The notes under the pieces are model-generated. The model saw nothing but the letters and a program-made list of their open reading frames with translations. It was not told the DNA's origin and ran no database searches. 33,541 nt of DNA from contig JACQWA010000106.1 of assembly GCA_016209425.1 (NCBI GenBank), positions 1-33,541 on the forward strand. The letters run 5' to 3'. Shown in pieces: positions 13,429 through 30,672 of this stretch (position 1 is its first letter; each line of letters opens with the position of its first letter). Origin of the DNA: Candidatus Rokuibacteriota bacterium. GTDB lineage: Bacteria; Methylomirabilota; Methylomirabilia; Rokubacteriales; CSP1-6. A program made the translations under genes and the position numbers.

Positions 13429-13549
13429 TGTGGGTGGATTGCCCCGGCTTCTCCTTTCATCCCTCCCGGGGTCTGGTTGGTTTTTCATTTGCATTCTGAA
13501 GCCGGCGGATGAATCTGCGGCCGTCACCAGCATTCCACGGAAGGCCGGT

Positions 13550-14719
13550 ATGAATCTCTTACAGAAGTCGACCATTCTCTTTGCCGACGACGACCCCGTC
13601 GTCGGCGAGTTCCTTGAGATCATCCTGAGGCAAGCGGGCTACACGGTGGTGAAAGCCACTGACGGTGTCGAGGCGATGGAGCGCGTCAGGCAGTCGTCGC
13701 CGGACCTGATCCTCCTGGACGTCGTGATGCCGCGCCTCGACGGCCTGGAGGTGCTTCGGTCTCTCCGCGAGAACCCGGACACCTCCCAGATTCCCGTGAT
13801 CATGCTCACGCAGAAGGCCCAGGTCGAGGACCGGGTGAAAGGGTTTGAATCGGGTGCCGACGACTATGTGCCGAAGCCCTTTGCGGCGCAGGAGCTCCTG
13901 GTGCGCATCCATGCGCTTCTCAAACGGAGCGAGAAGGTCCGGGCCCTCGGTCCGCTCATGGGGGTGCTGGGCGACTGGTTTTCGGCCCGGGGGATCGAGC
14001 AGCTTGGTCACGAGCTGGAGACGGCGCGCGAGATCCAGTTCCGACTCCTGCCGCCCTCCCTGCCCAACCTGGCCGGGGTGGAGGTCGGGGCGGTCGTCGA
14101 GCCGACCAAGAGCGTGGGCGGGGATTTCTACGATTTCATTCCCATGCCGAGCGGGGTCGGGTTTGCGGTCGGCGACGTGTCGGGGAAGGGGATCCCCGCA
14201 GCCCTCCTCATGGTGATGGTCCGCTCGCTCCTGCGCGCCACGGCCTGGGAGCTGAGCAGGCCCGCAGAGATTCTGGAGCGGGTCAACCGGTTTCTCTACC
14301 GGGACCTCCCTCCCTCGAAGTTCGTGACCATGGTCTTCGGCGTGCTGGATCTGGGCACCGGCCGCCGGTTGAGCGTGACCAACGCGGGCCATGTCAATCC
14401 GCTCGTGCTGAGGCGGGGGGAGCCGCCGCGGGTCCTTGAGGTGGGAGGGACAGTGCTGGGCGCCTTCGAGGAGGTCAGCTTCCCGCACGAGGACGTGGAT
14501 CTTCAGGCCGGGGACCTGGTGGTGATCTGCACCGACGGCGCGATCGAAGCGCCGGACTCCTCGGGAAAGGCGCTGGGGGTGGAGGGCCTCGTCTCCCTCA
14601 TCGAGCCGCGCCGCGCGGAGCACCCGCAGGCGGTTGCCCGGGCCGTGGTCGACGAGATCCGCGCCCGGAACCCGGGCCCCAGCCGGGACGACATCGCGCT
14701 CCTGATCCTGAAAGCATGA
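13550..14719 (+). CDS. response regulator with SpoIIE/RsbU-type PP2C phosphatase output
   Basis: A 389-residue cytoplasmic two-domain protein. Residues 1-125 are a receiver: the acidic pocket Asp13-15, phospho-acceptor Asp57 (LLDVVMPRLDG), the switch Thr in VIMLTQK, and Lys109 (VPKPF). A linker GVLGDWFSARG and helix lead to a PPM/SpoIIE phosphatase with metal aspartates in GGDFYDF (Asp192), VGDVSGKG (Asp209), TDGAIEA and RDDIALLIL. Such proteins dephosphorylate a STAS-domain antagonist when their receiver is phosphorylated. ATG 13550 follows GGAAGG; the track's GTG 13430 start adds a non-family leader. It is a tandem paralogue of the next gene. Confidence 0.9.
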   Translation: MNLLQKSTILFADDDPVVGEFLEIILRQAGYTVVKATDGVEAMERVRQSSPDLILLDVVMPRLDGLEVLRSLRENPDTSQIPVIMLTQKAQVEDRVKGFESGADDYVPKPFAAQELLVRIHALLKRSEKVRALGPLMGVLGDWFSARGIEQLGHELETAREIQFRLLPPSLPNLAGVEVGAVVEPTKSVGGDFYDFIPMPSGVGFAVGDVSGKGIPAALLMVMVRSLLRATAWELSRPAEILERVNRFLYRDLPPSKFVTMVFGVLDLGTGRRLSVTNAGHVNPLVLRRGEPPRVLEVGGTVLGAFEEVSFPHEDVDLQAGDLVVICTDGAIEAPDSSGKALGVEGLVSLIEPRRAEHPQAVARAVVDEIRARNPGPSRDDIALLILKA

Positions 14720-14779
14720 CTCCCCTGCGTCCCGTCGCCCGCCCGCTTGTCATGCGCTCCCTGGCGATGGAGAGCCCCC

Positions 14780-15946
14780 ATGGCTGATTCCGAGTCGGTC
14801 GCGAAGATCCTGGTCGTGGACGACAATTCGGACAACGTGGAGCTGGCCCGGGCGGTGGTGGAGGCCGCCGGGTACGCGGCGGTGACCGCCTCGGACGGCG
14901 TCGAGGCGCTGGAGCGGGTCAGGGAATCGCTGCCCGATTTGATCCTGCTGGACGTCATGATGCCCAGGCTCGATGGGCTCGGGGTTCTCCAGGCGCTCCG
15001 GGAGAATCCGGCCACTGCCCAGATCCCCGTGATCATGTTGACCGCGAAGGCGGAAGTCTCCGACCGCGTCGCCGGGCTCCAGCTCGGTGCCGACGATTAT
15101 CTCCCCAAACCCTTCTCCACGGACGAGCTGGTGGCGCGAATCCAGACGCTCCTCAGGCGGAGCGAGAAGCTCCGATACCTGAACCCCCTGATGGGCGTCC
15201 TGGGGGACTGGTTCTCGGCTCGCGGGGTCGAGCGACTTTCTCGAGAGCTGGAGGTGGCCCGTGAGATCCAGATGTCGCTGCTTCCGAAGGTCCCGCCCCC
15301 CGTTCACGGGGTCGAGCTGGGGGCGGTGCTCTACTCCTCGGAGACGGTGAGCGGAGACTTCTACGACTTTCTCACGATGCCGGATGGGACCCTGGGGATC
15401 TCGGTGGGGGACGTGTCGGGCAAGGGGATTCCCGCCGCGCTGCTCATGATCATGGTCCGCACGCTCTTCCGGGTGACCGCCGCGGACGGGGAATCTCCCG
15501 GCAAGGTGCTGTCCCGCATCAACCGCTACCTCTCCCGCGACATCCCGCCCACGATGTTCGTCACCATGTTCTTCTGCGTTCTAGGACCCGGCCGGCAACT
15601 CATCTACGGGGACGCCGGTCACGTCAAGCCCGTCCTGCTTCGCCCGGGCCAGCCGCCCCGCCCGCTGGAGGCGGAGGGGATGATGTTGGGCATCCTGGAT
15701 GACCCCGAGTTCGACGAGGGAACGATCCAGCTCGACCCGGGGGACCTGCTCGCGCTCTACACGGACGGGGTGGTGGAGTCCGTCGGGCCGGACGGCCGGA
15801 TGCTGGGGATCGAGGGATTGGGCGCCCTCCTCGAGGCCAACCGCGACAAGCCCCCCCAGGTCATGGCCGAGGTCATCGCGGGGGAGATCAGAAAGAGTCC
15901 GGGTCCCCTGCGGGACGACCTCACGCTTCTCATCCTCCGTGCCTAG
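14780..15946 (+). CDS. response regulator with SpoIIE/RsbU-type PP2C phosphatase output (paralogue)
   Basis: A 388-residue protein with the same architecture as its upstream neighbour: receiver (DDNSDN pocket, Asp58 in LLDVMMPRLDG, Lys110 in LPKPF), the near-identical linker GVLGDWFSARG, and a SpoIIE phosphatase with GDFYDF, VGDVSGKG, TDGVVES and RDDLTLLIL intact. The two copies share long identical stretches, indicating a tandem duplication, yet differ in receiver surface and in the NAGHVNP versus DAGHVKP loop. They may therefore answer to different histidine kinases. No kinase gene lies in the window. ATG 14780 follows GGAGAG. Both copies look catalytically competent. Confidence 0.9.
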   Translation: MADSESVAKILVVDDNSDNVELARAVVEAAGYAAVTASDGVEALERVRESLPDLILLDVMMPRLDGLGVLQALRENPATAQIPVIMLTAKAEVSDRVAGLQLGADDYLPKPFSTDELVARIQTLLRRSEKLRYLNPLMGVLGDWFSARGVERLSRELEVAREIQMSLLPKVPPPVHGVELGAVLYSSETVSGDFYDFLTMPDGTLGISVGDVSGKGIPAALLMIMVRTLFRVTAADGESPGKVLSRINRYLSRDIPPTMFVTMFFCVLGPGRQLIYGDAGHVKPVLLRPGQPPRPLEAEGMMLGILDDPEFDEGTIQLDPGDLLALYTDGVVESVGPDGRMLGIEGLGALLEANRDKPPQVMAEVIAGEIRKSPGPLRDDLTLLILRA

Positions 15947-15954
15947 AAGGAGGT

Positions 15955-15983
15955 TTGGGACTCCGCCGCTCGCCTGCTATACT
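15955..15983 (+). promoter_or_regulatory. sigma-70-type promoter TTGGGA-17-TATACT
   Basis: TTGGGA (15955-15960) and TATACT (15978-15983, 5/6) are exactly 17 bases apart, just after the second phosphatase gene. This could transcribe the kinase and STAS genes separately from the phosphatases. The predicted start near 15990 coincides with an ATG that opens an eight-codon reading frame (15990-16016) ending just before the kinase ATG. Confidence 0.55.
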
Positions 15984-16020
15984 CGAAAAATGCCGGGGCT
16001 CGATCGAGCGGGATGACGCG

Positions 16021-16464
16021 ATGACCGACGGGGCCGCGGAGGGAACCTTCGTGTTGACCAGCGAGCCGCAGCACCTGGCTGGATTGCGGGAATGGCTGCG
16101 CGGGGAACTCACGCGCCACAAGGTGGAGCAGCGCGAGCAGTTCGGCCTCCAGGTGGCGGTGGGCGAGATCTGCTCCAATTCCATCAAGCACGCGTACGCC
16201 GGGCGTGGCGGGAAGCCGATACACGTTTCGGTGCGGGGGAATGACGACCGGCTGGTCATCGAGGTGCGGGATTTCGGCAAGAAATTCGATCCGGGCGCCT
16301 ACCGGCCGCCAGACCTCGAGGCGGTGCCGGAGCGGGGGGTCGGCCTCCATCTCGTCAAGCAGTTCGTGGACGAGCTCTCGTTCGACGTGACCCTCGAGCA
16401 GGGAACGCGATGGACGCTCGTGAAGTATCGTCGCGGACGGAGGCCGGGGTCGCGGACGCCATGA
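16021..16464 (+). CDS. RsbW/SpoIIAB-like serine kinase (anti-sigma-factor type ATPase)
   Basis: A 147-residue GHKL-fold protein kinase of the HATPase_c_2 (RsbW) group. In partner switching it phosphorylates the STAS antagonist and sequesters a target, often a sigma factor. The N box is GEICSNSIKHAY with Glu49 and Asn53, G1 is DFGKKFDP and G2 is RGVGLHLVK, so the ATP site is complete. ATG 16021 is preferred; the track's TTG 15955 lies within a promoter -35. Next come the STAS gene after 19 bases and, upstream, the two phosphatases, giving all three biochemical activities of a partner-switch. No sigma factor is encoded here. Confidence 0.9.
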   Translation: MTDGAAEGTFVLTSEPQHLAGLREWLRGELTRHKVEQREQFGLQVAVGEICSNSIKHAYAGRGGKPIHVSVRGNDDRLVIEVRDFGKKFDPGAYRPPDLEAVPERGVGLHLVKQFVDELSFDVTLEQGTRWTLVKYRRGRRPGSRTP

Positions 16465-21517: not shown

Positions 21518-22282
21518 CTACAGCGTGTAGGTTTTGCCCTGCTCGAGAATATGGATGCGAGCAGGATCTATCTTCTGAAGCTCCTCGGTGGTTTCCTCGA
21601 AGAAGTGCGGCTTGATGTGGTAGATCCAGAGGGGGAGGTCAGAAGGCATCTTCTTCATCTCCCGGCTCAGCATCGCCGGGGTGAGATGCTTCGACGCCTG
21701 GGCCAGGCCGTCCAGGCGGTTGGGAAATGCGGTCTCCACGATCACCGCTTTGAGCCCCTTCAGCCCTCGGGCCGCCTGCCAGATCCGCTCGGTGGGCCCG
21801 GTATCGCCCGAATACAGGAAGCCCGTCTCACCGTCGTGGATCAGGAAGCCCACCGCCTCCACCGTGTGATCCACCCGGATGGGAGTGACCCAGAGTTCGG
21901 CAACCCGCGACTCCACCTCGTCGGCCAGCGTCCGGTAGCGGAGGATGGCGGTCTTGGGTGTGGGGATCGTCGAGAAGTCGGGCCAGAGGTGGTCGTTGAA
22001 GGCGTGCGTGCGGAGGTCGTCCACGACCGGGGCAATGCTGGTGGCAAGGACCGGACCTCGTGCCGCCGTGATGGCGAGCGTGTCGGTGAGGTAGGCCAGC
22101 CCCGCAATGTGGTCGAGGTGAGCGTGGCTCAGGAGGGCGTGCTCGATCTCCCGCTGCTCCTCCACGTTGAGCGCCCCCGGCACGCTCCCCGCGTCGACGA
22201 GCACGTGGTCGTTGACGAGGAACGCCGAAGGACGCTGCCCCTGGCCCTCGCTGCCGAAGACCCCGAGCACCTTGATTTTCAT
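21518..22282 (-). CDS. class II 3',5'-cyclic-nucleotide phosphodiesterase (metallo-beta-lactamase fold)
   Basis: A 254-residue metal-dependent hydrolase. The motif SHAHLDHIAGL matches the class II cyclic-nucleotide phosphodiesterase signature (HxHLDH), and later ligands appear in GDTGPTE and YHIKPH. Family members such as yeast PDE1 and Vibrio CpdP hydrolyse cAMP/cGMP to the 5'-nucleotide. It has no signal peptide, so it should act in the cytoplasm. It is divergent from and 98 bases away from a CHASE2 adenylate cyclase gene, which strongly supports a cAMP-degrading role over a generic beta-lactamase-fold hydrolase. A TTGACC-17-TAAAAT promoter lies immediately upstream. Confidence 0.85.
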   Translation of the reverse strand: MKIKVLGVFGSEGQGQRPSAFLVNDHVLVDAGSVPGALNVEEQREIEHALLSHAHLDHIAGLAYLTDTLAITAARGPVLATSIAPVVDDLRTHAFNDHLWPDFSTIPTPKTAILRYRTLADEVESRVAELWVTPIRVDHTVEAVGFLIHDGETGFLYSGDTGPTERIWQAARGLKGLKAVIVETAFPNRLDGLAQASKHLTPAMLSREMKKMPSDLPLWIYHIKPHFFEETTEELQKIDPARIHILEQGKTYTL

Positions 22283-22380: not shown

Positions 22381-24450
22381 ATGAAATTTTTTCCCGGCGC
22401 GGCTCGGCCGTGGCTCATCGGTGTCGGGGTGGGAACGGCCGTGGCGCTCACCACCCTTCCGGGTGCGTTCGAATTCCTGGAGCTCCGGAGCCTCGACCTC
22501 CGCTTTCTCCTGCGCGGTCCCATCCCCCCGGATTCCCCCATTGTCATCATCTCTATCGATGAGGACTCCTTCGACGAGCTGGACCTCGCGTGGCCGTGGC
22601 CCCGGGAGCTTCACGCCCGGATGCTGGACATCGTGCGGCAGGGGCGGCCGGCGGCGATCGGAATGGATCTCCTCTTCGTTGAGCCGAGCATTCGGGGACC
22701 CCGTGACGATCAGGCCTTGGCCGGGGCCGTCGCGCGGGCCGGCAACGTGGTGCTGGGGGCGGTCCTGACGGAGATCCGGGAAGCGCTCTTCGTCAAGGAG
22801 GACCTCAACCCCCCCCTCAAGGTGATCCGCGACCGTGCGGCAGCCTTTGGCTTCGTCAACCTCGTCACCGACGAAGACGCCTTCGTCCGGTCCGGGGCGC
22901 TCACCCGTCCTTACCAGGGGGGGATCCAGCAGAGTTTTGATGGGCACCTCTATGATCTGGCGGTCAAAGCGGGCATCCGGGCCAAGCCGCTCCCCCCACG
23001 ACCGGCCGTGTTCATCAATTACCGAGGGCCGAAGGGGACCTTTCCCGTCATCCCGTACTACCAGGTGCTGAATGGCGAGGTGAAACCAGAAACGTTCGCC
23101 GGGAAGATCGTCCTGGTGGGAGCGACCGCCCCCGCCCTCCACGACGAATTTCCCACCCCCTTCTCGGGGCAGGAGAAGATGCCCGGCGTGGAGATCCACG
23201 CCAACGTTGTCGAGACTCTCCTCCAGGGCAACGGGCTGTTCCGCGTTCCGCTCTCCGTGGGGGCGGTCCTGGCCCTCGTGGCCGCCCTCCTGGCGGCTCT
23301 CGTCACCTCCCTGATGCGCCCGATCCGGGCGTTCCTCCTGACGCTGGCGGCAGGTGTGTCGTACGCCGTGCTCGCCTTCGGTGTCTTCGTCCGTCTCTCC
23401 CTCTGGATGGAACTGATCCCGGTCCAAGTCGCCCTCTTCCTCGGCTTCGGGACCACCGTGGTTGTCAACTTCATCCAGGAGCAGCGGGAGAAGCGCCGGC
23501 TTTCCAGATTTTTCTCGCCGGACGTCATCAAGGAGATCCTGAGCACGCGGAAGGAAAGCTCCCTCGTGGGAAGCCGCCGCCGGATCAGCGTCCTCTTCTC
23601 GGACATCCGCGGATTCACGTCTCTCTCGGAAAAGCTGAGCCCCGAGGAGGTGGTCGAGATGCTCCGGGAGTACCTGACCGCGATGACCGAGATCGTCTTC
23701 AAGTATGGCGGGACCGTGGACAAGTACATCGGGGATGCGATCATGGCTCTGTACGGCGCGCCGTTCGACCAGCCCAACCACGCCGAGCAGGCGGTGCGCA
23801 CCGCGTTGGAATTTCAGGACCGGGTCAAGGCCCTCTCCGATCGCTGGGAGGCCAGGTGCGGGGCGCGTCTCCGCAACGGCGTGGGGATCAATACCGGGGA
23901 TGCCGTGGTCGGCACGATCGGGTCCCTGCAGCGGCTGGAGTACACCGCGATCGGCGACACGGTCAACCTCGCCTCCCGCCTCGAAGGCCTGACCAAGGAG
24001 TTCCTCGCTCCGATCGTGGTGAGCCAAAGCACCTACGAGGAAGTCAAGCACCTCTTCTACTCGCGCTACCTGGGAGAGGTGAAAGTCAGGGGCAAGGAGA
24101 CGGCCGTCAAGATCTATGCGGTCGAGAAGGCAGAAGGGCGTCAGGCTCCCCGCGCTTCCTTCGAGGCCCCGGTCACCATCGTGGACGAAGATATCTCCAT
24201 CACGGCCGCAATGACGGACCTCAGCCGAACCGGGATGGCGGCAAGGAACCTGCCCAAACGCATCCCGGCCAATCGGATTGTCGCGATCCGGATCGACGTT
24301 CCCGGCCTCCGCGAGCCGCTTGCGGTTGACGGCCGGGTAATCTGGACCGACGAGGATCGCGCGGGATTCGCCTTTGTCGGGCTCTCACTGGAGGACGAGA
24401 ACCTCCTCGAGGATTTCGTCAAACGCCGAAACACGAGGGGTGAATCCTGA
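22381..24450 (+). CDS. CHASE2-domain adenylate cyclase with C-terminal PilZ domain
   Basis: A 689-residue membrane class III cyclase. One N-terminal helix precedes an extracytoplasmic CHASE2 sensor (about 30-285, e.g. SLDLRFLLRG, AIGMDLLFVEPS). Three transmembrane helices follow at about 289-363. The catalytic domain has metal aspartates Asp408 (FSDIRGFT) and Asp452 (YIGDAIM), adenine-selecting Lys448 and Asp526 (IGDTVN), and transition-state Asn529 and Arg533, so it should make cAMP, not cGMP. After residue 580 is a PilZ domain with RQAPR (587-591, RxxxR) and DLSRTG (613-618, DxSxxG), the c-di-GMP-binding signature. It is divergent from a cAMP phosphodiesterase. Sensor ligand unknown. Confidence 0.9.
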   Translation: MKFFPGAARPWLIGVGVGTAVALTTLPGAFEFLELRSLDLRFLLRGPIPPDSPIVIISIDEDSFDELDLAWPWPRELHARMLDIVRQGRPAAIGMDLLFVEPSIRGPRDDQALAGAVARAGNVVLGAVLTEIREALFVKEDLNPPLKVIRDRAAAFGFVNLVTDEDAFVRSGALTRPYQGGIQQSFDGHLYDLAVKAGIRAKPLPPRPAVFINYRGPKGTFPVIPYYQVLNGEVKPETFAGKIVLVGATAPALHDEFPTPFSGQEKMPGVEIHANVVETLLQGNGLFRVPLSVGAVLALVAALLAALVTSLMRPIRAFLLTLAAGVSYAVLAFGVFVRLSLWMELIPVQVALFLGFGTTVVVNFIQEQREKRRLSRFFSPDVIKEILSTRKESSLVGSRRRISVLFSDIRGFTSLSEKLSPEEVVEMLREYLTAMTEIVFKYGGTVDKYIGDAIMALYGAPFDQPNHAEQAVRTALEFQDRVKALSDRWEARCGARLRNGVGINTGDAVVGTIGSLQRLEYTAIGDTVNLASRLEGLTKEFLAPIVVSQSTYEEVKHLFYSRYLGEVKVRGKETAVKIYAVEKAEGRQAPRASFEAPVTIVDEDISITAAMTDLSRTGMAARNLPKRIPANRIVAIRIDVPGLREPLAVDGRVIWTDEDRAGFAFVGLSLEDENLLEDFVKRRNTRGES

Positions 24451-25010: not shown

Positions 25011-25757
25011 ATGAGGAAACCACCTAGGCTGCTGGCGGCGGGGGTCTTCGCTGTGATGAGTGCCGCGATCCTCGGGGTCGCCGGCGCAGAGAGCCCGAAA
25101 GGCGCGGGTACGGTGACCGCGGTGGCGGGGCCGGCAACGGTGACGCGACTGGCGGCGACTCCTCAGCCCTTGAAGGTCCGGGACACGCTCTTCTCGGGGG
25201 ATGTCGTGGAGGTGCCCAAGAACGCGATGGCCCGGGTGCTCCTGGGGGGCAAGACGACGGTCACGGTGCGGGAGCTCTCGCGGCTGAAGTTGCGCGAGGA
25301 AGCGCTGGCCGCGGGAATGCACTACACGGTGGAACTCCTCTCGGGGAAGGTGCGGGCTTCGGTGGCACGGATGCTGATGCGCCCGGGCGAGCAGGTGGAG
25401 GTGCGGACGCGTAACGCGGTGGCTTCGGTGCGCGGCACGGACTTCATCGTGGAAACGGTCGAGCGGCCGATCCAGACACGGGTATTTGGATTGCTGGGGG
25501 TTCTGGAGGTGTGGCAGGAGGCGGAGGAGCAGCAGGCCCGGTCCGGGGAGACGGGCGTGATCACCCTCTCCGGCCTGGTGGGGGTGTCCAATCGCCTCGC
25601 CGGCACGGGCCGCGTCGAGCAGATCGGCGCCAATGAGGCCGCGCGGGTGAGCGGCAGACGGGACGCCGGGCGGCTCCCGGTCAGTCCCGATGACCTGAAG
25701 GTGTTGTTTAGGGGGGTGACCGCGACGCGGGCGTTGCCGGAGCCAAGCGGGAAGTAA
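25011..25757 (+). CDS. secreted FecR-domain protein
   Basis: A 248-residue exported protein. A signal peptide (MRKPPRLLAAGVFAVMSAA) ends near AGA at residue 26. The FecR domain occupies about residues 55-155: RDTLFSGDVVEVPKNA, then a beta-rich VRELSRLKL, then LLSGKVRASVARML and VRTRNAVASVRGTDF. Classical FecR is a cytoplasmic-membrane anti-sigma factor, but this one lacks an N-terminal anti-sigma part and transmembrane helix. It should therefore be a free or surface-associated periplasmic protein. It follows the CHASE2 cyclase gene and may partner with the extracytoplasmic CHASE2 domain, which is inference. ATG 25011 lies nine bases after GAGAGGGG. A strong terminator follows. Confidence 0.8.
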   Translation: MRKPPRLLAAGVFAVMSAAILGVAGAESPKGAGTVTAVAGPATVTRLAATPQPLKVRDTLFSGDVVEVPKNAMARVLLGGKTTVTVRELSRLKLREEALAAGMHYTVELLSGKVRASVARMLMRPGEQVEVRTRNAVASVRGTDFIVETVERPIQTRVFGLLGVLEVWQEAEEQQARSGETGVITLSGLVGVSNRLAGTGRVEQIGANEAARVSGRRDAGRLPVSPDDLKVLFRGVTATRALPEPSGK

Positions 25758-25913: not shown

Positions 25914-26588
25914 ATGAGCGATAACGACTTTGACTATCCGATCATGGCGCGCGCCCTGATCCTCGGCGACAGGGACACCGTGGCCAAGAAGACCCGGGAG
26001 GGGCTCGACCTCCGGATAGATCCCAAGGATCTCATCTTCAAGGGCCTCATCCCCGGAATGGACGTGGTGGGGGAGAAGTTTCGCCGGAACGAGTACTACG
26101 TACCGCAGGTGCTTCTCTCCGCCCGCGCGATGTACGCCGGCCTGGATCTCCTGAAGCCTCTCATCACCGCGTCGAAGACCGCGGAGTACCTGGGAACCGT
26201 GGTGATCGGCACGGCCCAGGGCGACCTCCACGACATCGGCAAGAACCTGGTGGCCATGATGCTGGAGGGCGCGGGGTTCAAGGTGCACAATCTCGGGCGC
26301 GACGTGGCGCCCGAGGTGTTCGTGGCTGCGGTGCAGGAGCATAACGCGGGCATCGTGGGGATCTCGGCGCTGATGACCACCACGATGCCGGCTATGAAGC
26401 GGACGATCGACGCGCTGACCAAGGCCGGGGTCCGCGATCGGGTCAAGGTGATGATCGGCGGCGCCCCCGTCTCCCAGGCGTATGCCGACGAGATCGGCGC
26501 CGACGGCTATGCGAGGGACTCGACGCTTGCCGTTGTCAGGGCCAAAGCCCTCGTCGGCAAGGACGCGGCGGCCGAGGCGAGGAGGTAG
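25914..26588 (+). CDS. corrinoid (B12-binding) protein of methyltransferase type
   Basis: A 224-residue stand-alone cobalamin-carrying protein. Residues 1-85 form the helical cap (B12-binding_2) and the rest the Rossmann-like B12 domain. GDLHDIGKNLV (His106) is the DxHxxG motif whose histidine is the lower cobalt ligand; GISALMTTTMPAM and MIGGAPVSQAYADEIGADGY are the further cobalamin-contact motifs. It corresponds to the middle module of MetH or to MtaC/MtbC-type proteins. ATG 25914 has GGGAG upstream; the track's earlier start lacks one. It is followed in seven bases by a homocysteine-methyltransferase gene, supporting a split methionine synthase. Confidence 0.9.
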   Translation: MSDNDFDYPIMARALILGDRDTVAKKTREGLDLRIDPKDLIFKGLIPGMDVVGEKFRRNEYYVPQVLLSARAMYAGLDLLKPLITASKTAEYLGTVVIGTAQGDLHDIGKNLVAMMLEGAGFKVHNLGRDVAPEVFVAAVQEHNAGIVGISALMTTTMPAMKRTIDALTKAGVRDRVKVMIGGAPVSQAYADEIGADGYARDSTLAVVRAKALVGKDAAAEARR

Positions 26589-26595
26589 CGACGGG

Positions 26596-27510
26596 ATGCC
26601 GACAAACGGGTGGGAATTGATCAAGCAGGTCAGCGCCGGAGAGATCCTGGTCTTCGACGGGGGGTACGGGACCATGCTCTTCGCCGCCGGCCTCGCAGAC
26701 GGCGCCTGTCCCGAGCTCTGGAACGACACCCACGCCGACGTCGTCCGCGGGATCCACAAGGGCTACTTCGACGCGGGCTCGGACTTTGTCGAGACCAACA
26801 CGTTCGGTGGCACGCGGCTCAAGCTGGGCGCCTACAAAATCACCGATCGGACCCGAGAGCTCAATGTCAAGGGCGCTCGCCTCGCGCGCGAGGTGTGCGC
26901 GCCCGGCAAGTGGGTGGCGGGGTCGATCGGCCCCACCAGCCATCTGCCCCTGGAGTACGAGCCTCTCGGCGATACCAGCGACGAGCAGTACTTCGAGAAC
27001 TTCAAGGAGCAGGCCGAGGCGCTGGCCGAAGGAGGCGTGGACCTCTTCGCGGTGGAGACCATGATGTTCCCCCAGGAGGCCACCGCGGCGATCCGGGCGT
27101 GCAAGGCGGTGGCGGATTTGCCCGTGATGGCGACAATGTTCTTCCAGTACGAGGAGGAGCACGCCCGCGACCGGACCATGTGGGGAGAGAGCCCCGCCGA
27201 CGTGGCCAAGACGCTCCTGGGCGCGGGGGCGGACGTGGTCGGCATGAATTGCGGGCGGGGCCCGGACCGGGCCATCGTCATCATCCGGGAGATGCGCCAG
27301 GTCACCGACGCTCCGCTGATCGCGTATCCCAATGCCGGTCTTCCCGTCATGAAGGACGGACGGGTCAGCTATGAGCTGGGGCCCGAGGAAATGGCACGCC
27401 AGTACCCCGCGCTCCTGGACGCCGGCTGCAACATCGTCGGCTCCTGCTGCGGTTCCACCCCCGAGCACATCCGCCGCATCGCCGAGGTGGTGCGCTCCCG
27501 GAAGACGTGA
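26596..27510 (+). CDS. homocysteine S-methyltransferase family protein (split MetH module)
   Basis: A 304-residue zinc-dependent TIM-barrel methyltransferase. FDGGYGTML and ETNTFGGTR open the barrel. Zinc cysteines are Cys219 (GMNCGRGP) and Cys284/285 (GSCCGSTP). This equals the N-terminal module of MetH that alkylates homocysteine with the methyl group carried on cobalamin. ATG 26596 is used; the track's start lies inside the corrinoid gene. The GTG of the next gene overlaps its stop. Other family roles, such as transfer from methylated amines or betaines, remain possible. Confidence 0.85.
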   Translation: MPTNGWELIKQVSAGEILVFDGGYGTMLFAAGLADGACPELWNDTHADVVRGIHKGYFDAGSDFVETNTFGGTRLKLGAYKITDRTRELNVKGARLAREVCAPGKWVAGSIGPTSHLPLEYEPLGDTSDEQYFENFKEQAEALAEGGVDLFAVETMMFPQEATAAIRACKAVADLPVMATMFFQYEEEHARDRTMWGESPADVAKTLLGAGADVVGMNCGRGPDRAIVIIREMRQVTDAPLIAYPNAGLPVMKDGRVSYELGPEEMARQYPALLDAGCNIVGSCCGSTPEHIRRIAEVVRSRKT

Positions 27511-28241
27511 TCTCCTCCGTTCTCGATTCGACGCCCGTCGTCCTGTCGGACGTTCCACTCCAGATCGACCCCGCCGAGGTCCTGCGCTTCCAGGGCTACA
27601 AGAAGGGGGAGGATGCCCCAACTCCCGAGGTGGTTGAGATCTACGCGGGGGCCATCAAGGAGGGCGAGGATCTGATCGATCCCCGGGCGGTCTACCGGGC
27701 GGTGCGCGTATCCGAGCAGGCTCCCGATTCGATCAGGCTGTCGGGGGGGGCCGAGTTCCACATCCCCGAGATTGGCCGGCTGTGGGGTCCGATCGAGAGC
27801 GTTGGGACCGTCGTGTGCACGATCGGGGAGCGGCTGGAGCGCCGGGTGAGGGAGCTTTTCGACGTCCGCGAATTCCCCCTGGCCGTGATGCTCGACAGCG
27901 TGGGCTCGGCCGCCACGGAGTGCCTGGCCGAGTACGTCAACGACCTTCTCTGCCAGGTCGCTATTCCCGAGCGGCTCAACGTCACGAATCGCATCAGCCC
28001 CGGCTACGCCGGCTGGGATGTCTCCGAACAGCGCCTGCTGTGGAGCCTGTGTCCGGGCGGTCTCGCCGGCGTGGCGCTCAACAGCGCGTGTTTCATGACG
28101 CCGACGAAGAGCATCTCGTTCCTGGTGGGGCTCGGGCCCGACGCGCGGGTGGACCACTACTTCACCCAGTGCCGTCGTTGCTGGATGAAGGAGTGCGCCT
28201 ACCGCCGCGCTCCCGCCGAGCGCATGGTTCACCGAGCCTGA
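27507..28241 (+). CDS. stand-alone methionine synthase activation-domain protein with Cys-rich tail
   Basis: A 244-residue protein matching the AdoMet-binding reactivation module of MetH. RISPGYAGWDVSEQRLLW is the RxxxGY-type SAM/cobalamin-interacting region, and SACFMTPTKSISFLVGLG completes it. In MetH this domain reductively remethylates oxidised cob(II)alamin. Here the C-terminus carries Cys222, Cys225 and Cys230 (CxxCx4C) absent from classical MetH, which could bind an iron-sulfur cluster or metal and supply electrons. GTG 27507 overlaps the upstream stop (GTGA), so it is coupled to the methyltransferase. Confidence 0.8.
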   Translation: MISSVLDSTPVVLSDVPLQIDPAEVLRFQGYKKGEDAPTPEVVEIYAGAIKEGEDLIDPRAVYRAVRVSEQAPDSIRLSGGAEFHIPEIGRLWGPIESVGTVVCTIGERLERRVRELFDVREFPLAVMLDSVGSAATECLAEYVNDLLCQVAIPERLNVTNRISPGYAGWDVSEQRLLWSLCPGGLAGVALNSACFMTPTKSISFLVGLGPDARVDHYFTQCRRCWMKECAYRRAPAERMVHRA

Positions 28242-28260
28242 GCCCGATCGCTCCTCCGCT

Positions 28261-28289
28261 TTGCGTTCTCGGCGCCGCGGCGGTACCAT
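28261..28289 (+). promoter_or_regulatory. possible promoter TTGCGT-17-TACCAT before shikimate kinase
   Basis: TTGCGT (3/6) and TACCAT (4/6) are 17 bases apart. The predicted start at about 28296 is a few bases before the ATG at 28301, so the kinase would be nearly leaderless. Weak on sequence alone. Confidence 0.3.
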
Positions 28290-28300
28290 GCTCTGCACAG

Positions 28301-28825
28301 ATGGACGGCGGCGAGAACATTGTTCTGATCGGGTTTATGGGGGCCGGGAAGTCCTCCGTGGGACGGCTCTTGGCCAAGCGCCTGGGCCGTTGCTTCGTGG
28401 AGACCGATGACCTGATCGTTGCCAAAGAAGGCCGCTCGATCCCGGAGATCTTCGCGACGGGGGGGGAAGCCCGCTTTCGCGAGCTGGAAGCCGACTTGCT
28501 GGAACTGCTGAGGCTCAAGCGCGGGGAGGTGATCGCCACCGGCGGCGGGTTTCCCTGCCGGGAGGGGCGGATGGAGACGCTCAAGGCGCTGGGGACGGTG
28601 ATCTGGCTCGCCGGGGAGTTCGAAGCGCTCTACGAGCGGGCGCTCCGATCCGGGTCGCGCCCCATGCTCGACGGCAAGCCCAAGGAGGAAGTGGCCGCGC
28701 TCTGTCGCGCGCGCGAGCCGTTCTATCGTCAGGCTCACTTGGCGCTCGAGACCACGGGCCTGGGTGTGGACCAGGTGGTGAGGCGGATCGTGTCGTTGCT
28801 CCGATCCCGGGCGCGGGTCGGCTGA
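28301..28825 (+). CDS. aroK: shikimate kinase
   Basis: A 174-residue cytoplasmic kinase that phosphorylates shikimate in chorismate biosynthesis. Walker A GFMGAGKSSVG starts at residue 11, ETDDL carries the shikimate-binding Asp, FRELEADLL and VIATGGGFP are the family substrate motifs, and GSRPML is the lid arginine region. ATG 28301 gives the normal length; the track's 27782 start is a run-on. There is no Shine-Dalgarno, consistent with a near-leaderless message. The stop overlaps the next gene's ATG (TGATG). It is an unrelated pathway inserted in the methyl-transfer cluster. Confidence 0.9.
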   Translation: MDGGENIVLIGFMGAGKSSVGRLLAKRLGRCFVETDDLIVAKEGRSIPEIFATGGEARFRELEADLLELLRLKRGEVIATGGGFPCREGRMETLKALGTVIWLAGEFEALYERALRSGSRPMLDGKPKEEVAALCRAREPFYRQAHLALETTGLGVDQVVRRIVSLLRSRARVG

Positions 28826-30672
28826 TGGGGACGAGCCCGTTCCTGGACCGGCTCGCGGAGGGCCCGCTCCTCTGCGATGGCGCCATGGGGACCATGCTCT
28901 ATGCCCGCGGCGTGCCGCTCGATGCCTGCTTCGACGTCCTGAACGAGAACAACCCCACCCTCATCCAGGCCATTCACGCCGAGTACCTCGCCGCCGGAGC
29001 CGACCTGATCGAGACCAACACCTTTGGCGCGAACCGATTCAAGCTGGCGGTGCATGGCCTCGAGGCCCGCGTGCGCGAGATCAACCTGAAGGGCGCGAAG
29101 CTGGCCCGGGACGCGCGCGAGCGCGCGGGCCGGGATGCCTTCGTGCTCGGGTCGATCGGTCCCCTGGGCAAGTATCTGGCGCCCCTCGGGACGGTCAGCG
29201 CCGAGGAAGGCCGGGCGGCCTTCCGCGAGCAAGCCGAGGGCCTCCTCGAGGGCGGCGTGGACGCCTTCATCGTCGAGACGTTCTCAGACCTCGGGGAGAT
29301 CCGGCTGGCGGTCGAAGCCGTTCGGACGATTACCGATCTGCCGATCATCGCCCAGATGGCATTCACCGAGGAGGGCATGACGTTCGCGGGGCGCGCCCCG
29401 GTCGAGGTGGCCCGCGCGCTCCGCGCGCTGCCGGTGCAGGTCATCGGCGCCAACTGCTCCGTCGGCTCCAGCGTCCTCTATGACATTTTGGAGCAGATGC
29501 TCCCGGAGGCCGGCGCGCTGCCGATCTCGATCCAGCCGAACGCGGGGCTGCCGAGCCGGGTCGGAGAGCGGCTCATCTACCTCTCCTCACCGGCCTACAT
29601 GGCCGAGTACGCCTTCAAGATGCTGCAGGCGGGGGCCAAGATCGTCGGCGGCTGCTGCGGGACCACCCCCGATCATGTCCGCGCGATGCGCGCGGCGGTG
29701 GACCGTCACGTTCCCACGGCGGTCCGCGCCAGGCGCGTGTCCGTTTCGCCGCCCGTGAGGGAGGAAGCTCCCGCGCTTCGGACCGCGGCGCCCCCCACGC
29801 CCCTGGCCCGGAAGCTGGAGGCCGGCGAGTTCGTGGTGACCGTCGAGCTGGATCCGCCTCGCGGCCACAACATCGAAAAGCTGGTCCAGGGAGCCAAGCT
29901 CCTGAAAGAGCGGGGCGTGGAGGTCGTCGATATCAACGACGGCTCGCTCGGACGCGTGCGGATGTCAGTCCTCCCGACCGCGGTCTTGGTGCGGGATGCG
30001 ACGGGGCTGGACATCAACATGCACTTCACCTGCCGGGACCGGAACCTCATGGGGATCCAAGCGGACCTGCTCGGAGCCCATGCCGTGGGGATCCGGAATA
30101 TTCTCGCCATCAAGGGTGATCCGCCGCGGGCCGGCGACTACGTCAACGCCACGGCCATCTTCGACGTGAACGCGATCGGGCTGGTCCGGATCATCCGCGG
30201 GATGAACGAGGGACGGGACGCCACCGGCAACTCGATTGGCGAGCCGACGGGCTTCTCCGTCGGGGTCGGCCTGAACCCGTCGGCCAAGGATCCGGACAAG
30301 GAGATCCAGCGCCTTCTTCGCAAGGTCGAGGCCGGCGCGCGCTGGGCCCAAACCCAGCCGGTCTACGATCTTGACCTCTTCGACCGCTTTCTCGCCCGGA
30401 TGGGGAAGCCGCCCATCCCGGTGATCGTGGGGATCCTGCCGCTGCACTCCTACCGTCACGCCGAGTTCCTCCACAACGAGGTGCCGGGGATCAGCATCCC
30501 CGAGCACGCCCGAGCGCGGATGCGGGAGGCCGGGGAGAGGGCGCTCCACATGGGAATCGAAATGGCCCAGATCCTTCTGTGGGAGGTGCGTCGCCACTAC
30601 GGGGGTGCCTACCTGGTGCCTTCCTTTGGCCGCTATGAGGTGGTCGCGGAAGTCCTGGACGCGCTGCACTGA
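28825..30672 (+). CDS. bifunctional homocysteine S-methyltransferase / 5,10-methylenetetrahydrofolate reductase
   Basis: A 615-residue fusion of the YitJ type. Residues 1-300 are a zinc-type homocysteine methyltransferase with Cys211 (GANCSVG) and Cys277/278 (GGCCGTTP). A Pro/Ala-rich linker near 300-325 leads to a methylenetetrahydrofolate reductase TIM barrel with TVELDPPRGHN, HFTCRDRN, NILAIKGDPP and TQPVYDLDLF, which would reduce methylene-THF to methyl-THF using FAD. The fusion couples making the methyl group to using it. It overlaps aroK by one base. Together with the three upstream genes it supplies most of a methionine-synthase pathway. Confidence 0.9.
   Translation: MGTSPFLDRLAEGPLLCDGAMGTMLYARGVPLDACFDVLNENNPTLIQAIHAEYLAAGADLIETNTFGANRFKLAVHGLEARVREINLKGAKLARDARERAGRDAFVLGSIGPLGKYLAPLGTVSAEEGRAAFREQAEGLLEGGVDAFIVETFSDLGEIRLAVEAVRTITDLPIIAQMAFTEEGMTFAGRAPVEVARALRALPVQVIGANCSVGSSVLYDILEQMLPEAGALPISIQPNAGLPSRVGERLIYLSSPAYMAEYAFKMLQAGAKIVGGCCGTTPDHVRAMRAAVDRHVPTAVRARRVSVSPPVREEAPALRTAAPPTPLARKLEAGEFVVTVELDPPRGHNIEKLVQGAKLLKERGVEVVDINDGSLGRVRMSVLPTAVLVRDATGLDINMHFTCRDRNLMGIQADLLGAHAVGIRNILAIKGDPPRAGDYVNATAIFDVNAIGLVRIIRGMNEGRDATGNSIGEPTGFSVGVGLNPSAKDPDKEIQRLLRKVEAGARWAQTQPVYDLDLFDRFLARMGKPPIPVIVGILPLHSYRHAEFLHNEVPGISIPEHARARMREAGERALHMGIEMAQILLWEVRRHYGGAYLVPSFGRYEVVAEVLDALH

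Follow-up and report, generated by a model that had tools for sequence, protein, structure and literature searches.

The window, that is, the whole stretch of 33,541 nucleotides that was analysed, carries on its plus strand an open reading frame (positions 22381-24450) for a protein of 689 amino acids, in which the ORF list and Pfam place a CHASE2 domain, a class III adenylate cyclase and a PilZ domain. The presence of all three in one reading frame, proposed in an earlier note on this DNA, was borne out by Pfam matches far above the respective cut-offs. The predicted periplasmic sensor domain CHASE2 (PF05226, 198.8 bits, E 1.6e-58) covers residues 19-307 (22435-23301, plus strand) and comes with one N-terminal transmembrane segment. 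Hydropathy and the full-length model indicate three transmembrane helices leading toward the cytoplasm at residues ~291-362 (23251-23466, plus strand); the corresponding helices of the model comprise residues 291-311, 314-339 and 346-374. Profile score, N-terminal segment and C-terminal transmembrane bundle identify a receptor of the CHASE2 type. Because of the single N-terminal segment and the helix cluster at ~291-362, CHASE2 would lie outside and the cyclase and PilZ domains in the cytoplasm, as is usual for CHASE2 proteins; in a two-membrane cell the sensor would be periplasmic. The cyclase catalytic domain (residues 400-581; 23578-24123, plus strand) was detected by Pfam (E 1.1e-27), phmmer and Foldseek. 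A linker of five residues (582-586; 24124-24138, plus strand) connects its last strand with the RxxxR motif of the PilZ domain (residues 587-681; 24139-24423, plus strand; Pfam E 4e-14). The single domains of the full-length model were confident (mean pLDDT 87); the model is monomeric with a pTM of only 0.63 and therefore gives nothing reliable on the dimer or on the domain arrangement. An assembly or frameshift artefact as the source of the fusion was ruled out by collinear homologues across many independent MAGs. These homologues align from residue 1 in independent assemblies, and Candidatus Rokubacteria MAGs yielded whole-protein matches with 74-78% identity, which assigns the window to this group.

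The neighboring gene (21518-22282, minus strand) is separated from the cyclase gene by 98 bp and transcribed divergently. It codes for a metallo-beta-lactamase-fold protein of 254 amino acids, a candidate class II cyclic-nucleotide phosphodiesterase. The PDEase_II profile (PF02112) matched above its cut-off of 23.7, with 37.7 bits; the match extended over no more than positions 81-143 of the 340-position profile and was outscored by Lactamase_B. A metal site of the HxHxDH type is present (SHAHLDH), and the sole PDB sequence match was 3',5'-cyclic-nucleotide phosphodiesterase 1 (E 8e-5). As the protein reached 40.1 bits with the NCBIfam equivalog NF041851 (cyclic nucleotide-degrading phosphodiesterase), for which the cut-off is 400, we did not file it as a class II phosphodiesterase and treat the activity as a lead; it may nevertheless work like a cyclic-nucleotide phosphodiesterase. 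The divergent pair of cyclase and phosphodiesterase-like gene was found in 25 of 53 homologous loci. Downstream of the cyclase gene, positions 25011-25757 (plus strand) code for a FecR-domain protein (PF04773, E 4e-11), a candidate periplasmic partner of CHASE2. Of the 53 homologous loci, about 22 have a FecR homologue in the vicinity of the cyclase; in several of these, FecR occupies the divergent side and the phosphodiesterase-like gene is missing there. Two further gene groups of the window are located on the plus strand. Positions 13430-16464 contain two adjacent response regulator-SpoIIE phosphatases (13430-14719 and 14747-15946) followed by an anti-sigma-type kinase with a HATPase_c_2 domain (15955-16464), likely a partner-switching module. 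Positions 26482-30672 code for two homocysteine methyltransferase-domain proteins, one of them fused to MTHFR, and for a protein weakly resembling the methionine synthase activation domain; an ORF with a shikimate kinase domain sits within this cluster.

The earlier note had also described the cyclase core as intact, and the catalytic residues are indeed present and conserved throughout the family alignment. The Guanylate_cyc profile (PF00211) scored 97.2 bits against a cut-off of 21.9. In the alignment of 54 family sequences D408, D452 and N529 were invariant, and K448, T522 and R533 were conserved in at least 90%. We take D408 and D452 to be the metal-binding aspartates, N529 and R533 the transition-state residues and K448 and T522 the adenine-selecting pair of class III enzymes, so that the set consisting of two metal-binding Asp, Lys/Thr, Asn and Arg is complete. 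Among solved structures, CyaB of P. aeruginosa (3r5g) came closest (phmmer E 2.6e-37), and Foldseek superimposed the predicted catalytic domain onto it with a TM score of 0.91; in contrast to the window protein, the solved CyaB chain is the catalytic domain alone, without a PilZ match. From these residues the catalytic domain looks active, and cAMP is the expected product because K448 and T522 are adenine selectors.

Behind the cyclase, the PilZ profile (PF07238) matched with 53.2 bits, and since this is far above the cut-off of 22.5 the match is not due to chance. The note had read RQAPR and DLSRTG as PilZ motifs at the proper spacing. They were found at residues 587-591 (R587-QAP-R591; 24139-24153, plus strand) and 613-618 (D613-LSRT-G618; 24217-24234, plus strand), with 21 residues between them where about 20 are expected. 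RxxxR and DxSxxG are the ligand-binding motifs of c-di-GMP-binding PilZ proteins (PMC10333796). The note's PilZ region, residues 580-689, was correct in placing the domain at the C-terminus; its start had to be moved from 580 to about 587. Structure prediction, suggested there as a check, returned a PilZ fold. The isolated tail, modeled together with 47 homologous tails, reached a mean pLDDT of 85.7 and displayed six strands and a C-terminal helix. Foldseek matches of this model were PilZ structures (MapZ, Alg44, PA0012, BcsA, YcgR), many of them, PA0012 included, bound to c-di-GMP, and c-di-GMP complexes of Alg44 and MapZ were among the best PDB matches. Pfam score, motif conservation and Foldseek matches ruled out a chance occurrence of the motifs. 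The PilZ domain is real.

Conservation was assessed in the 47 homologous tails, which, apart from the closest relatives, mostly share 21-40% identity with the query. The mean column identity of the domain was 37%, and only four columns were invariant: R587, R591, G618 and G662. Three of these four lie in the two motifs. Both arginines of RxxxR and the glycine of the second motif were thus found in 47/47 tails, D or N at position 613 in 45/47 and S at position 615 in 37/47; both motifs were complete in 35/47. Selection has preserved the ligand residues in a PilZ domain that otherwise diverges fast. Omega values against five close homologues were 0.10-0.17 for PilZ, 0.17-0.22 for CHASE2 and 0.09-0.14 for the cyclase, and the PilZ part is therefore under clear purifying selection. 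Given these results, binding of c-di-GMP by the fused PilZ domain is predicted with considerable confidence.

The connection between the two cytoplasmic domains is constant in length. From V581 in the last cyclase strand to R587, exactly five residues intervene in 45/47 homologues. A mere tether would be expected to vary in length, and the constant length of this loop, which leads straight on from the catalytic domain, therefore suggests mechanical coupling. In known PilZ proteins such as VCA0042 and BcsA, the RxxxR loop reorganises upon ligand binding. We propose that the protein acts as a homodimeric membrane adenylate cyclase taking two inputs. A periplasmic signal perceived by CHASE2 would be passed through the transmembrane helices to the helix preceding the cyclase. 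At the other end, the C-terminal PilZ domain would hold c-di-GMP, with the RxxxR loop on one side of the ligand and the DxSxxG strand on the other. Since RxxxR begins only five residues past the last cyclase strand, a loop that closes on c-di-GMP would be expected to move the PilZ barrel relative to the catalytic dimer, so that cAMP is made at a different rate. This cAMP would reach the cNMP-binding proteins of the cell and be cleared by the divergently encoded phosphodiesterase-like enzyme. As an overall explanation, a two-input cyclase whose cAMP output is adjusted by c-di-GMP-bound PilZ is probably correct, and modulation of the cyclase by c-di-GMP binding is itself likely. By analogy with BcsA and Alg44 we lean slightly toward activation as the direction of the effect.

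The genomes contain the parts that such a protein would work with. In the organism's own genome (G000), profile searches matched 6 GGDEF, 2 EAL, 9 PilZ, 28 class III cyclase and 5 cNMP-binding domains; on the strength of these matches both c-di-GMP and cAMP are probably made and read by the cell. The cyclase repertoire is unusually rich, with many of the 28 class III domains encoded in frames of ~1,100 codons. A GGDEF match was obtained in 56 of the 57 genomes of the family. In one of them (G056, 97% complete, 2 GGDEF) the cyclase-fused PilZ (L081), with intact motifs, was the only PilZ domain found.

By our own count, about 40 of the 57 species genomes of the family contain the fusion, and five further ones (G008, G024, G026, G054 and G055) have the same cyclase without PilZ. 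Beyond the family it was found at least in a genome of the same class (G088), in the Methylomirabilota MAG L020 and in the Nitrospirota MAGs L014, L015, L016, L024 and L028. Plasmid-borne relatives from cultured bacteria were rejected as fusions: their top long hits, from Sinorhizobium and Agrobacterium, are cyclases, and the match to H3, a gene for 204 amino acids, extends past the cyclase without representing a PilZ fusion. A maximum-likelihood tree was calculated from the CHASE2-cyclase part, PilZ presence was mapped onto it, and the mapping was compared with 500 shuffles. The observed distribution needs five changes, a number as low as this was reached in 0/500 shuffles, and the pattern is compatible with a single gain of PilZ and four subsequent losses. 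The lineages that appear to have lost PilZ are L026, L018/L019/L067, L073/L075 and L101. In L101 (2933-4744) the PilZ core is deleted in frame, and the start of the linker and the last C-terminal helix are kept; this homologue is a natural PilZ deletion. Repeated loss of PilZ with retention of the cyclase shows that PilZ is dispensable. The persistence of PilZ-less cyclases of the same family in several lineages, L101 included, would also be understandable if PilZ bound c-di-GMP without regulating catalysis, and instead positioned or recruited the cyclase, for instance at a pole or within a pilus complex, or served as a platform for protein interaction. The PilZ proteins MapZ and YcgR, for example, do work through protein-protein contact (PMC10333796). 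The linker of fixed length speaks for direct mechanical coupling instead, and we regard such a purely positioning role as unlikely, if the most serious of the alternatives to allosteric control of the cyclase by c-di-GMP.

Departures from the canonical motifs bear on binding itself. The second motif is altered in 12/47 homologues, mostly by an S to G exchange. A single genome among the 57 of the family, G045 (94% complete), yielded no GGDEF match, and EAL was also not found in it; its fused PilZ (L023/L086) reads DVAVDG in the second motif. According to this genome PilZ may be able to persist where c-di-GMP synthesis is possibly absent. Use of G045 as a natural c-di-GMP knock-out, suggested by the broken second motif of its fused PilZ, was set aside, since its other PilZ protein, the REC-PilZ protein L105, seems canonical and completeness is 94%. 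Altered motifs and the PilZ copy retained in G045 would fit a PilZ domain that no longer binds c-di-GMP and acts as a structural or dimerisation module. This seems quite improbable, as RxxxR, located in a loop ahead of the barrel, does not vary in any of the 47 tails, the window protein is fully canonical, and in each of three genomes (G039, G040 and G041) the altered copy is accompanied by a canonical one (L021/L080 with L079, L092 with L071 and L025/L082 with L104, respectively). These pairs fit relaxed or altered function after duplication. Canonical and altered copies in one genome (L079/L080, L071/L092, L104/L082) may also represent a functional split after duplication. A product other than cAMP, for example cGMP, which would link c-di-GMP to another nucleotide, is very improbable: some sequence-close class III enzymes such as Cya2 (2w01) are guanylate cyclases, but the adenine-selecting residues K448 and T522 are kept in at least 90% of the family and the nearest solved relative, CyaB, is an adenylate cyclase.

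CHASE2 cyclases, class III cyclases and PilZ-controlled enzymes are already known separately. CyaD1, CyaD2 and CyaK of Sinorhizobium meliloti are CHASE2 adenylate/guanylate cyclases in which an outside signal, arriving via an outer-membrane protein, raises cAMP (PMC13001267). Like the window protein, they combine a CHASE2 sensor with a class III cyclase; in contrast, their published description makes no mention of PilZ (PMC13001267). The closest functional parallels are BcsA, Alg44 and Bd1971. The cellulose synthase BcsA and Alg44, both good Foldseek matches, are membrane proteins whose output is under a fused PilZ domain with RxxxR and DxSxxG, but what they deliver is polysaccharide synthesis or export instead of a nucleotide messenger. 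The Bdellovibrio protein Bd1971 is described as a cAMP-sensing EAL phosphodiesterase and thus one protein that directly joins the cAMP and c-di-GMP networks, although in the opposite direction, with cAMP as input and c-di-GMP turnover as output (PMC6717892). In Pseudomonas putida, FleQ is reported to control cyaA, so that cAMP production is influenced by c-di-GMP (work cited in PMC11139211); this control is transcriptional and indirect and does not reside in one polypeptide. No adenylate cyclase fused to PilZ was described in the literature searched, which covered few subscription papers; a listing in domain databases is possible, and a review puts the number of PilZ architectures in Pfam at 221.

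Sequence and model data support the earlier reading of this protein as a link between c-di-GMP and cAMP. A conserved pocket for c-di-GMP on a cyclase would link the two messengers directly, in the direction from c-di-GMP to cAMP, and the fusion could hand information directly between bacterial signaling networks within one molecule. The intact, motif-altered and PilZ-less relatives represent a ready natural comparison set. On balance, we favor the view that the fusion, not described before, is a one-protein junction widespread in uncultured Rokubacteria and their relatives, by which c-di-GMP would set cAMP synthesis directly and allosterically and which in some species may be the principal or sole route of c-di-GMP output through PilZ.
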